From: Gloeocapsa sp. DLM2.Bin57
GTDB lineage: Bacteria; Cyanobacteriota; Cyanobacteriia; Cyanobacteriales; Gloeocapsaceae
DNA: 64,000 bases
Assembly: GCA_007693955.1 (NCBI GenBank)
Contig: RECR01000043.1
Coordinates: 1-64,000 of the forward strand
Direction of reading: 5' to 3'
The notes beneath the pieces are model-generated. The model was not told the DNA's origin. It made no database searches and saw nothing but the letters and a program-made list of their open reading frames with translations. Shown here piece by piece: positions 41,590 to 46,667 of this stretch. Both the position numbers and the translations under genes were made by a program. Every line of letters begins with the position of its first letter. The stretch's first letter is position 1.

Positions 41590-42162
41590 ATGACTAAAAT
41601 TAATTTATACCCTATTAAAGACCAAATTAGTGCTAAATTTGCGGCAATATGTCAAGAAAACCCTAATTTATCCTTAGAATTATCGGCGACAGGAGAATTA
41701 AGAGTCATGTCACCTACAGGAGGAGAAACAGGAAGACAAAACGCTTATTTACTTGGTTTATTTTTTGTCTGGAATCAAGCTAACCAGTTAGGGGTTTTAT
41801 TTGATTCTTCTACTTGTTTTCGCTTATCAAATGGGGCGTTATTTTCTCCTGATTTAGCTTGGGTTACCCTAGAGAGGTGGAATAACCTAAGCAAAGATGA
41901 ACAGCAAAAGTTTCCCCCTTTAGCTCCCGATTTTGTGTTAGAGTTATTATCACCTAGTGATTCACTGCCACAACTCCAAAATAAGATGAGAGAGTATCTC
42001 CAAGGTGGAGTACCTTTAGGATGGTTATTAAATCCCAATCTCAAAAGCCTAGAAATCTATCGTTTAAATAGTGAAGTAGAGATATTATCTAATCCTCTTA
42101 CTATTGCCGCAGAAAAAATTTTACCTGGATTAGTAATTAATTTAACGTCTATTTGGGGTTAG
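41590..42162 (+). CDS. Uma2 family putative nuclease
   Basis: 190 residues with the PD-(D/E)XK-like core of the Uma2 family: FSPDLAWV, PPLAPDFVLELLSPSDSL and KMREYLQGGVPLGWLLNP. Uma2 proteins are expanded in cyanobacteria; nuclease activity is inferred from fold. It overlaps the convergent 366-residue gene by four bases. Confidence 0.9.
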   Translation: MTKINLYPIKDQISAKFAAICQENPNLSLELSATGELRVMSPTGGETGRQNAYLLGLFFVWNQANQLGVLFDSSTCFRLSNGALFSPDLAWVTLERWNNLSKDEQQKFPPLAPDFVLELLSPSDSLPQLQNKMREYLQGGVPLGWLLNPNLKSLEIYRLNSEVEILSNPLTIAAEKILPGLVINLTSIWG

Positions 42163-43259
42163 TTAATTTGTAACAAAGAACGTAAAACTATGGTAGCTGC
42201 TTCTCTAATGGCTGTGGAACGCACGTCTAACTGTTCATAACTATCTACAAATCGTTGATAATCTTCTAGGTTTTTAGGTTCGTTAATCTCCTTCCAAAGT
42301 ACCCTTAACATTCTTTCAGTTCTTTCGATTTGGTCTAAACACTCTCGATATTTACGAAAACTATTGTCATCTTGAAGGATTCCTAAAGTAAATTTAGCTA
42401 TCTTATATTTCCAAATATTGCTTTTAAAATCCCAAGAACGAATTAAAATATTTAAGGTTTGTTCATAAGCAAAAGGTTTATAGGCTAATAATTCTTGGAG
42501 AGTTTCCCGCTTAATATTGAGAAATTCTGAGCGAGGTTTTTTAACACCATTTCTTTCCCATTCGTCGATTTCTTGAATTTGATTGATATGACGAGTAATC
42601 GTAGGAAACCAATTAGCTAAAAGAGGAAAAGTCCCATAGCGATCGATTAAATCTTTAGCAGAAAATTCTAAACCTGTGATATAATCTCCCAGAATAATAT
42701 CGGGTATATCATGATTATAATAACTCCCTAAATCTAAAAATTGTTGAAGTTTATCAATAAATTGATTCACATTACCCATAAATTTAATGAGTTGATTGAT
42801 CTCTTCTGATTCCAGATAAATAGCAATTTCTTGTAATAAAATATTCACATCTCCCGTTTTACCTAACTCAAAAATTTCCCCTAGTTTATCTTCGATAGTT
42901 TCTAATTTATTGAGAATATGTTTAATACTTAAACCGCCAATTTGTTCGGTATCACCAGGTAATAAAACTAAACGTTCAGTATCAGGGTAGTTATCGAGAA
43001 CATATCCCCAACCAGTTAACCATCTTTGACAAGTATCAACAGCCCAAATTTCTACTAAATCAAGCTGACGATTATTAACAATAATATCGTTATAAAAAAT
43101 AGCTGCTTTTCCCTTTTGTTTTGTTTCCATATTAACAACAACAACGGGAGGATTAAGAGTGGTTTTAGTACAACAATCAAATAATTTCCAAAAAATACCA
43201 GACTGTACCTTGTTTTTTAAACCTCCATGAGGGAAGATAATGATAGCTCTGGTAGTCAT
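42159..43259 (-). CDS. Protein of unknown function, possible GT-A-like N-terminus
   Basis: 366 residues. The first ~130 look like an alpha/beta domain: RAIIIFPHGGLKNKVQ, a strand PVVVVNMETKQKGKA, then RLVLLPGDTEQIGGL, in which the acidic DTE stands where a nucleotide-sugar transferase would place its metal-binding motif. The rest is helical, rich in Leu and Glu, with coiled-coil character. No signal peptide. I do not recognise the family; a glycosyltransferase-like role is a guess. It is not co-oriented with a close neighbour except the caspase gene 46 bp upstream. Confidence 0.6.
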   Translation of the reverse strand: MTTRAIIIFPHGGLKNKVQSGIFWKLFDCCTKTTLNPPVVVVNMETKQKGKAAIFYNDIIVNNRQLDLVEIWAVDTCQRWLTGWGYVLDNYPDTERLVLLPGDTEQIGGLSIKHILNKLETIEDKLGEIFELGKTGDVNILLQEIAIYLESEEINQLIKFMGNVNQFIDKLQQFLDLGSYYNHDIPDIILGDYITGLEFSAKDLIDRYGTFPLLANWFPTITRHINQIQEIDEWERNGVKKPRSEFLNIKRETLQELLAYKPFAYEQTLNILIRSWDFKSNIWKYKIAKFTLGILQDDNSFRKYRECLDQIERTERMLRVLWKEINEPKNLEDYQRFVDSYEQLDVRSTAIREAATIVLRSLLQIN

Positions 43260-43305: not shown

Positions 43306-45402
43306 CTATTGAGTATTAATTACAAAACTTAAACTAGCCCAATGAGTAACCGCTAAAGTATAGTTATCAGCAGAATTCGGGATTAATTTTGATTTAGCCT
43401 GACTTGCGTTGTCTAAATCTGTCAGAATAGCTTGGATAACTCCTAAAGGTTTAAGTAACAAGACAATTGTTTCTTTATTCCCCAAGGTTTGTTGTTGATT
43501 ACCGAGAGTTTCTAAAGTGTTTTTAAAAGGACTATCACTACAAATCACTAGAGTTTCTGTAATACCTAAAGGTTCAGAAGTTTTCCAAGTAAAAGAATTA
43601 TTGGGATTAGGTATAACGCGAGTTTCTCCTGGATTAACCACAGAAGGTAAGGTTTTTTGATTCAGAGGAGGGGTATAAAGAGCGATCGCCTGATGATCAG
43701 GTAAGATACTTAATAAGATAAAATAAATAGGGTTATTACCCTGATTAGTCAAACGATATTGAATAGATTTATTTATCGGGATACTAGGGAGAAATTGTCC
43801 TGGATTTTTCCTAGTGATTTTATCTTGTTTACCTCCTGATTGGCTAATTTTTTGCCAAATCATTTGATTACGTTGGTCAAAAATCGTTAAACTAACTTCT
43901 ACTGGTAAGCGAGAAGAAGCTTGATTGAGAGTAAGTCTGCTTAATTTGGCTGCTAAAATTACTGCTAAATTAGGAGTTAAACGAGTAACCGCTGACTTAA
44001 TCGCTTCGTTAACTTCCCCTGTGGTTTTAGGGATAAGATTACCTTTCTGAGTCAATAAACCATAACCTGTAGAAGTTTTTGCCAATAAACAATCAGCCCA
44101 TTGTTCCCCTGGATTAACTATACCATCAACTAGATCCAGATTAACTAGTGCACTAGTAGCGTCAACCCTTTCGATTCTTTCGAGACTATTATCTAAAGCT
44201 ATAGCTAACTTTACATCTTTGGGTAAAACTCTGAGATATTCTTGAACAACTTGTCCTACTTTTAAGTTTTTGGGGGGATTATCACCGAGCCAACTTGCAT
44301 TACTAGTAAATTTATTTAGACTATGCAACTGTAAATATTGCTCAGGTTTTAATTCAGGTATCGCGAATAGAGAGTTAGCACCATAATTTTGTAAAACCGT
44401 TGCGGGTAATCCTAATAGATTTACTTGTGGTTCTTCTCCAATTGAGCTAAGATAACCATGAGCAGAAAAAGCTGATTGGGATTTTAGGTAGTAAACCACA
44501 TCTGATGTCAGAGCAGGTTTACTCAATTGAGGTTGTTGTTGACTTCCCATCACAGTAGCGATATTAGCAGTAGCTTGAGCTAAACTAGTAATTAAATTAG
44601 TCGGGGGAATTTTTGACCAAAGATCTTGAGTAAGATTATAAGTAAATAAACCCGCACTAAAATTTTGCCAACGTTGTTCAACCGCTAGTTGATTTTCTGC
44701 TCCCGCGTGTAATAATATTGGTTGAAGATTTTTTTTAGTTGAAGGTATCCCTAATCGTATTTGTTCAGCAAAAGCTACCTCTGAGATATTTTCTTGTTGT
44801 TCACCAGGTGGTAATAAAGAACGAACTTTCAAGTTACCGAGAAGTAATTGACTAGGAATAGCATAACTAGTATCTAAGACTAGAGTAACCTTATCTGTAG
44901 GTAAAGATTGGGCTAATAAAACTAAGGTTTTTTCTAGTAAATGATTACTAGTGGAGTTCTTTTTATTGGGGAAGCTACTATCTACTGGTACTAAACTAGG
45001 GAGATTAGTTTGATTAGGGAGACTTGCTAAACTACCATAACCGCTAAAATGAAAAACCACTATATCAGTAGCTTTAGCTTGTTTAATAAGATGTTCTGTA
45101 AAAGCGGTTTCGATGTTTTCCCTAGTTGCTTCTTTTTCAGTGAGGGTAACAATATCCTGGGGTTGAAAATTAAAACGGTGAATTAACAACTCTTTTTGTA
45201 ACTCAACATCCGTCAAACAACCATTCAATTGAGGATAGTGAGGATATTGATTAATTCCTACTAACAAAGCTAACTTACGGTTAGTTGTAGCAGCTAGAGT
45301 TTGAACATAGCGGTTAAATCCAGGTAAAGTGAGTTGACTAGTACCTAGAGTTAGTATAGCTAATCCCGTTTGTTGTAAAAACCGCCTTCGTTCAATTCTC
45401 AT
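43306..45402 (-). CDS. Pseudo-orthocaspase with Tat signal and DUF4384
   Basis: 698 residues. MRIERRRFLQQTG is a twin-arginine signal with a hydrophobic stretch after it, so export is predicted. The caspase p20 fold follows (RKLALLVGINQYP at 43-55). At the catalytic His position the protein reads FSGYG (Tyr122), and at the catalytic Cys position LVLDTSY (Ser179), so both catalytic residues are replaced. Tyr/Ser pseudo-orthocaspases are a known cyanobacterial group. The C-terminal part (about 500-620) is a DUF4384-like region (GNNPIYFILLSILPDHQAIAL). It may bind rather than cut partners. It precedes the unknown 366-residue gene on the same strand. Confidence 0.88.
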   Translation of the reverse strand: MRIERRRFLQQTGLAILTLGTSQLTLPGFNRYVQTLAATTNRKLALLVGINQYPHYPQLNGCLTDVELQKELLIHRFNFQPQDIVTLTEKEATRENIETAFTEHLIKQAKATDIVVFHFSGYGSLASLPNQTNLPSLVPVDSSFPNKKNSTSNHLLEKTLVLLAQSLPTDKVTLVLDTSYAIPSQLLLGNLKVRSLLPPGEQQENISEVAFAEQIRLGIPSTKKNLQPILLHAGAENQLAVEQRWQNFSAGLFTYNLTQDLWSKIPPTNLITSLAQATANIATVMGSQQQPQLSKPALTSDVVYYLKSQSAFSAHGYLSSIGEEPQVNLLGLPATVLQNYGANSLFAIPELKPEQYLQLHSLNKFTSNASWLGDNPPKNLKVGQVVQEYLRVLPKDVKLAIALDNSLERIERVDATSALVNLDLVDGIVNPGEQWADCLLAKTSTGYGLLTQKGNLIPKTTGEVNEAIKSAVTRLTPNLAVILAAKLSRLTLNQASSRLPVEVSLTIFDQRNQMIWQKISQSGGKQDKITRKNPGQFLPSIPINKSIQYRLTNQGNNPIYFILLSILPDHQAIALYTPPLNQKTLPSVVNPGETRVIPNPNNSFTWKTSEPLGITETLVICSDSPFKNTLETLGNQQQTLGNKETIVLLLKPLGVIQAILTDLDNASQAKSKLIPNSADNYTLAVTHWASLSFVINTQ

Positions 45403-45445: not shown

Positions 45446-45477
45446 AAAAAAAGCCCGCACTTGTTTAAAAGTGCAGG
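45446..45477 (-). terminator. Terminator of sat
   Basis: On the minus strand AAGTGC (plus 45469-45474) pairs with GCACTT (45457-45462), extended across one mismatch by CC/GG pairs, and a run of seven T follows. It lies nine bases after the sat stop and upstream of the caspase gene. Confidence 0.85.
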
Positions 45478-45485
45478 AATTTGAC

Positions 45486-46667
45486 TTAAACCTTTTGTAC
45501 TTGAGATTGCATTGCTTGAGATAATTCTGCTGCAACTTCAGGACGAGAAAATTCAGGGGGTGGTAATTCACCACGACGCAACATTTCTCTTACTTTTGTA
45601 CCTGAGAGGTGAATACGATCTTCTTTAGTCGCGGGACTAGTTTTGGTTGTCGCCATTTGTTGAGTTAACTTACAATAAAAAGCGTGTTCAAACATCATCG
45701 GGACGATTTCTAACTCATGGGGTTCAAACTCAGCAAAAATCTTTTGTGCATCGTAAGTACCGTAATAATCTCCTACACCCGCGTGGTCTCTACCGACGAT
45801 AAAATGGGTACAGCCATAGTTTTTACGGATTAAAGCGTGGAAAATCGCTTCTCTAGGACCTGCGTAACGCATGGCTGAAGGATTGATAGCCAGAATAACG
45901 CGATCGTGAGGATAATATTTTTCGAGCATAATCTCATAACAACGCATTCTCACGTCTGCGGGGATATCATCTTCTTTCGTTGCACCTACGAGAGGATGTA
46001 AGAAGAGTCCATCAACTACCTCCATCGCACATTTTTGAATATATTCGTGAGCGCGATGTATGGGGTTGCGGGTTTGAAAACCGACAATAGTTTGCCATCC
46101 TTTCTCTTTAAACATAGCCCTTGATTGTAGGGGATCTATTTGATAGGAAGGGAAGAGAGGATGAGCTTCTCTGTCTAATAACCAAACAGGACCTGCTAAA
46201 TTAACTGGTCCAGATTCAGATAAAACTTTAACACCAGGATGCTTCTGCTCGTCGGTTAAGTAAACATTGACCGCTTCGTGAGCTTTATTGTAGTGGTATT
46301 TTTGGGTTAGTTCTAAAACCCCGATAAATTTACCTTCAGAGTTATCTAGACGTACCCAATTACCTTCTTTGAGGGAGTCTGCTACTTCTTCTGACACAGA
46401 GAGAGTCACGGGTAATGACCAAGGAAGACCGTTGGTTAGACGCATATCTTCAACTACTGTCTCGTAGTCTGCTTGTTCCATAAACCCTTTTAGAGGACTA
46501 AAACCACCGATGGCGATCATCACTAAGTCAGATTCAGCCCGTTGATCTAGTTGTACTCTAGGTAGAGAGTCGGCTAATTGGAGAAATTCTGCTCTTTCTG
46601 CAGCTGTGGCTACGCGATTGATTAAATGACCACCGTGGGGGGTAATTCCGTCTATATGTGTACTCAT
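45486..46667 (-). CDS. sat: Sulfate adenylyltransferase (ATP sulfurylase)
   Basis: 393 residues of the monofunctional (Met3-type) enzyme with [16 protein letters not shown] and [12 protein letters not shown], both ATP/sulfate-site motifs. It makes APS from sulfate and ATP, the first step of sulfate assimilation. No APS-kinase domain is attached. It is divergent from the aldehyde dehydrogenase gene, with only 41 bp between the two starts. Confidence 0.97.

Follow-up and report, generated by a model that had tools for sequence, protein, structure and literature searches.

The locus and its pseudo-orthocaspase

The window, the whole stretch of 64,000 nucleotides of Gloeocapsa sp. DLM2.Bin57 that was analysed, contains on its minus strand, at 43306..45402, a gene which starts with ATG and comprises 698 codons; the coordinates and frame proposed by a first-pass annotation of the sequence were correct. 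Relatives of the 698-aa product occur in genomes of the same order, and the nearest named one in the genome collection, from an uncultured Gloeocapsa, is 80% identical. Pfam recognises two domains, both above the curated cut-offs: a caspase domain (Peptidase_C14, residues 42-302, 44497..45279, E = 1.4e-16), which covers positions 1-232 of the 233 of the model, and a DUF4384 (residues 553-625, 43528..43746, E = 2.3e-8), which the same annotation had described as kept. They are preceded by a Tat-type signal peptide (residues 1-37, 45292..45402) and separated by a conserved middle domain with no Pfam name (residues 308-510, 43873..44481), delimited by conservation and by the structural model. With the predicted structure, Foldseek identified a metacaspase-like p20 fold (match to metacaspase-9, E = 4e-14). 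Judged from these features, the protein belongs, as a Gloeocapsa-type member, to the Tyr-Ser (YS) pseudo-orthocaspases already published. Just one further caspase is encoded in this genome, in a frame of 1684 aa that retains the His-Cys dyad and lacks an export signal.

Immediately upstream of the caspase gene, and on its strand, lies sat (45486..46667), coding for ATP sulfurylase and assigned by Pfam; a terminator-like hairpin with a T-run (45454..45477, minus strand) is found between the two genes. Downstream of the caspase gene, a 366-aa ORF (42159-43259, minus strand) gave no Pfam or NCBIfam match.

Loss of the dyad and retention of the S1 pocket

The SGHG motif is replaced by SGYG (45034-45045), which puts Tyr122 (45037..45039) at the position of the catalytic His, and alignment with His-Cys homologues places Ser179 (44866..44868), within LDTSY (the DTSY motif), at the position of the catalytic Cys. 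The His-Cys dyad of an active orthocaspase is absent, as had been claimed from the sequence, and the protein is best read as catalytically dead. In 149 aligned pseudo sequences, which include many close relatives, Tyr122 is found in 132 and Ser179 in 131, residue 179 is Gly in 16, and no sequence combines His with Cys. The residues of the acidic, Arg/Lys-binding S1 pocket, Cys62, Asp65, Ser120 and Asp177, are all present in the window protein; in the same alignment Asp65, Ser120 and Asp177 occur in 149/149 each and Cys62 in 144/149, 80 of the loci having come from a scan with peptide patterns including FHFSG, which biases the counts of His118 and Ser120 and leaves those of Asp65, Asp177, Tyr122 and Ser179 free of this bias. 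The S1 pocket thus varies less than the dead dyad, as a binding role would predict.

The change from FYFSGHG to FHFSGYG resembles a His/Tyr swap, and we considered a shifted catalytic His. His118 (45049..45051), present in 145/149 pseudo forms, is equally fixed among the exported His-Cys paralogues described below (25 rows), which rules out this possibility; it marks the exported clade as a whole almost without exception, His-Cys members included.

Compared with two congeners, the p20 domain has a dN/dS of 0.157 for the first and 0.175 for the second, where dS is high. Because of these values (0.16-0.18) and since a relative, either pseudo or exported His-Cys, is present in 140 of the 149 genomes of the order, the gene is attributable neither to chance nor to decay.

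Phylogeny and distribution

The phylogeny of YS orthocaspases was a check named beforehand in the first-pass annotation. The p20 domains of some 200 sequences were aligned, and 100 of these served for a tree from which the two dyad columns were left out. All 54 pseudo rows, the window protein included, formed one clade with an SH-aLRT of 99. Adjoining it are 24 His-Cys proteins which possess His118 and, in nearly all cases, a twin-arginine signal; cytoplasmic His-Cys orthocaspases fall outside, except the long-branch row L177. Full-length members of this sister group with DUF4384 and a twin-arginine signal are encoded at L157:658-2931, L163:656-2920 and L167:652-2802. When five exported His-Cys proteins were scanned, four were full-length with DUF4384 (three above the cut-off) and one was a short p20-only form. 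The simplest reading is that catalysis was lost once, within a lineage already exported; the deeper branches are weakly supported, and the tree comes from a quick search with a midpoint root, so that this is not a proof. Short exported His-Cys orthocaspases of about 400 aa that lack the C-terminal half are also encoded at L168:488-1693, L169:646-1836, L170:404-1603 and L200:1384-2580.

YS forms were reported to be widespread in cyanobacteria and absent from Gloeobacter, Prochlorococcus and Cyanobium (PMC6426788). Among 68 genomes sampled across the class, 58 have a relative (pseudo or exported His-Cys), and pseudo-orthocaspases occur in nearly all cyanobacteria. Family f41, with genomes of 1.6-3.0 Mb (G229, G233, G249, G251, G253, G269), has no pseudo-orthocaspase relative, and its ATP sulfurylase is clearly more divergent. 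Family f63 has no relative of the YS protein, though sat is present. Family f31, from the same order as the window genome, gave no match in the seven genomes tried (G031, G054, G072, G089, G106, G123, G138), five of which are at least 99% complete; it seems to depart from what was published on absences. At L154 (G040:C1:1888929-1890092), a stop and a gap disrupt a relative, which appears to be a broken copy.

Export signal and location

The N-terminus, MRIERRRFLQQTG, displays a twin-arginine motif (RRRFL), a short and weakly hydrophobic core whose Kyte-Doolittle maximum is about 1.1, and, around residue 37, a T-L-A site. R5, R6 and F8, which make up the RR-x-F motif, are present in 129/129 full-length relatives, and A37, the -1 Ala of the predicted signal-peptidase site, in 127 of them. 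The features of Tat substrates (RR-x-F-L, weak core, A-x-A type site) are all found here, in agreement with the Tat signal noted at first, and export itself is predicted.

In a proximity-labelling screen of the thylakoid lumen with PsbU-APEX2 in Synechococcus PCC 7002, A0101, a caspase p20 protein described as a homologue of sll0148, was among the most enriched proteins (enrichment 7.64); it ranked above Ycf48, PsbO, CtpA and Psb27 and was absent from the cytoplasmic GFP-APEX2 set (PMC7880944). The sole orthocaspase listed for PCC 7002 is Tyr-Ser (PMC6426788, Table 1). Combining the two papers, we consider A0101 a likely orthologue of the YS protein; taken together, these data locate a YS orthologue within the thylakoid lumen or close beside it. 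The extracytoplasmic location initially proposed is supported for this PCC 7002 relative, and by extension would apply to the window protein. The paper on the sll0148 knock-out does not mention the thylakoid lumen (PMC7889975). The periplasm is still an alternative to the lumen, since cyanobacteria use Tat for both compartments and some periplasmic proteins were also labelled in the PsbU-APEX2 screen (PMC7880944).

The C-terminal half

Residues 308-698 are predicted with a pLDDT of 93, and Foldseek returned no PDB match for them at E ≤ 0.001. The hits to F1-ATPase and TolB, at E of about 2e-3, have TM-scores close to 0.15 and carry no meaning, and the C-terminal alignment used as a profile against PDB sequences gave nothing convincing. 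Strong matches to this half were obtained in 25 genomes, all in long frames, which were caspase-family genes where examined, and Pfam detected DUF4384 in 32 of 39 relatives. In the alignment of relatives, few parts of the protein are as conserved as block 381-420, which contains ERIERVDATS. Given this conservation, a separate binding function probably resides in the C-terminal half.

Linkage with sat

In a sample spread evenly over the class and restricted to genomes with both genes, 36 of 58 genomes and 19 of 29 families have sat directly upstream of the caspase gene in the same orientation; the two genes are apart in the other 10 families. When loci were retained according to the upstream sequence available, sat was upstream in 99 of 122 loci with at least 1.3 kb and in 56 of 66 with at least 3 kb, versus 22 of 66 for the second commonest real neighbour within 6 kb. 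A cluster of neighbours at 25 loci turned out to be an antisense frame within the caspase gene itself. Within about 3.3 kb upstream of the exported His-Cys paralogues, sat was found in 0 of 14 cases.

The hairpin, which resembles an intrinsic terminator, is present in 7 of 102 intergenic regions, those of the Gloeocapsa genus and a few others. It makes co-transcription of the two genes doubtful in this genome, and the idea of a plain sat-caspase operon is weakened here. In Nodularia M32, the caspase-homologue gene NSP_23610 was described beside a sulfate adenylyltransferase gene and a link with sulfur was proposed; its expression is steady, with several transcription starts, some of them inside the preceding gene (PMC4933709). 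That report concerns one genome, whereas the linkage is counted here across families; in the open papers searched, we found no report of it beyond this Nodularia genome.

Comparison with known orthocaspases

The Tyr/Ser change, the Tat-like N-terminus and the acidic pocket of cyanobacterial YS pseudo-orthocaspases have already been published (Klemencic et al. 2019, PMC6426788), and the window protein shares all three, as well as a cyanobacterial host. It differs in its domains: the cyanobacterial YS forms were listed there with no further domain, whereas DUF4384 and a modelled middle domain are found here. DUF4384 was counted elsewhere in 4 cyanobacterial pseudo-orthocaspases (PMC8283722). The N-terminal extension had been singled out as what sets pseudo forms apart most strikingly from active ones (PMC6426788); judging by the predicted signals, it is not confined to the former, which changes one published point. 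Indeed, the exported His-Cys orthocaspases (e.g. L157, L163, L167) have the Tat signal, caspase domain, DUF4384 and His118 in common with the window protein, and differ from it by their intact dyad and by the lack of a sat neighbour. SyOC (sll0148) of Synechocystis PCC 6803 is by description of the same class, the single pseudo-orthocaspase of a unicellular cyanobacterium, with a Tyr-Gly dyad where the window protein has Tyr-Ser (PMC7889975).

To what was published, the present analysis adds the single pseudo clade beside exported His-Cys sisters, the stricter retention of the pocket than of the dyad, the class-wide neighbourhood of sat, the connection of the lumen label of a likely orthologue to the YS class, and a well-modelled C-terminal half with no PDB match. 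The sat linkage, the sister paralogues and the sll0148 knock-out had all been missed by the first-pass annotation, which held that the YS type is known in cyanobacteria and its job is not. The type is indeed published (PMC6426788); the job is not wholly unexplored, since the sll0148 knock-out has been reported (PMC7889975).

Possible function

In our judgement, the protein is ordinary in kind and well confirmed, and its function is what we infer. The reading we prefer, to which we give a probability of about 0.5, is that of a lumenal, non-cleaving binding protein which recognises Arg/Lys, is exported folded via Tat and attaches to other components through its C-terminal half. The folded dead caspase would be exported most likely to the thylakoid lumen, where the intact S1 pocket of the p20 domain would hold on to protein segments that contain Arg/Lys and leave them uncut, and the middle domain and DUF4384 may attach the protein to its partners. 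Its position behind sat in most cyanobacteria would fit a control shared with sulfate activation and redox state. The predicted fold, the loss of the dyad, the retention of the pocket, the purifying selection, the single pseudo clade and the gene order were computed here, and the lumen proximity labelling of the likely orthologue comes from the literature (PMC7880944). The 'binding scaffold' proposed at first is plausible with a strictly kept Arg/Lys pocket; binding itself is a reading of the sequence. In Synechocystis, deletion of sll0148, the Tyr-Gly member, raised tolerance to oxidative stress (H2O2) (PMC7889975), which counts against a simple assembly scaffold, as no such effect would be predicted.

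The same knock-out phenotype is what speaks for a role in oxidative stress as a pro-death or sensitising factor. We hold this to be improbable: near-universal presence, purifying selection and the steady expression of the sat-linked Nodularia gene (PMC4933709) look like housekeeping, and tolerance can also arise indirectly through an altered redox state. No better placed, in our opinion, is a decoy or dimer partner which would restrain an exported active orthocaspase in the manner of cFLIP. Exported His-Cys paralogues with the same Tat/p20/DUF4384 layout do exist and several genomes (e.g. G168, G193, G315) carry both kinds; against this, the window genome has no exported active partner, and PMC6426788 argued likewise from unicellular strains that possess the pseudo form alone. 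A surviving hydrolase activity, in which Ser179 would be the nucleophile and nearby His118 the base, is highly improbable. Both residues are frequent in pseudo forms, but a His118 equally fixed in the His-Cys paralogues does not replace a lost His, and Gly takes the place of Ser179 in 16 of the 149 sequences.

The clade, the pocket, the sat neighbour and the lumen match of the likely orthologue lead to specific and testable predictions on thylakoid biology. One bolder extension, which we regard as rather unlikely, is that a lumenal pseudo-caspase, reading Arg/Lys motifs near photosystem II and tied to sulfate activation through conserved gene order and a common control, couples the supply of sulfur or thiol to photosystem assembly or repair. 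Sat is a cytoplasmic enzyme. A physical link between it and a lumenal protein is therefore unlikely, and the adjacency of the genes may reflect co-regulation only. The linkage could even be an inherited neighbourhood with no functional meaning, which would be compatible with a lumenal binding protein and which we see as a tentative but serious alternative. The cytosolic location of Sat, the families in which the genes are apart and the hairpin between them in this genus favour such neutrality; the excess of sat over the next real neighbour and the absence of the linkage from the His-Cys paralogues argue against it.
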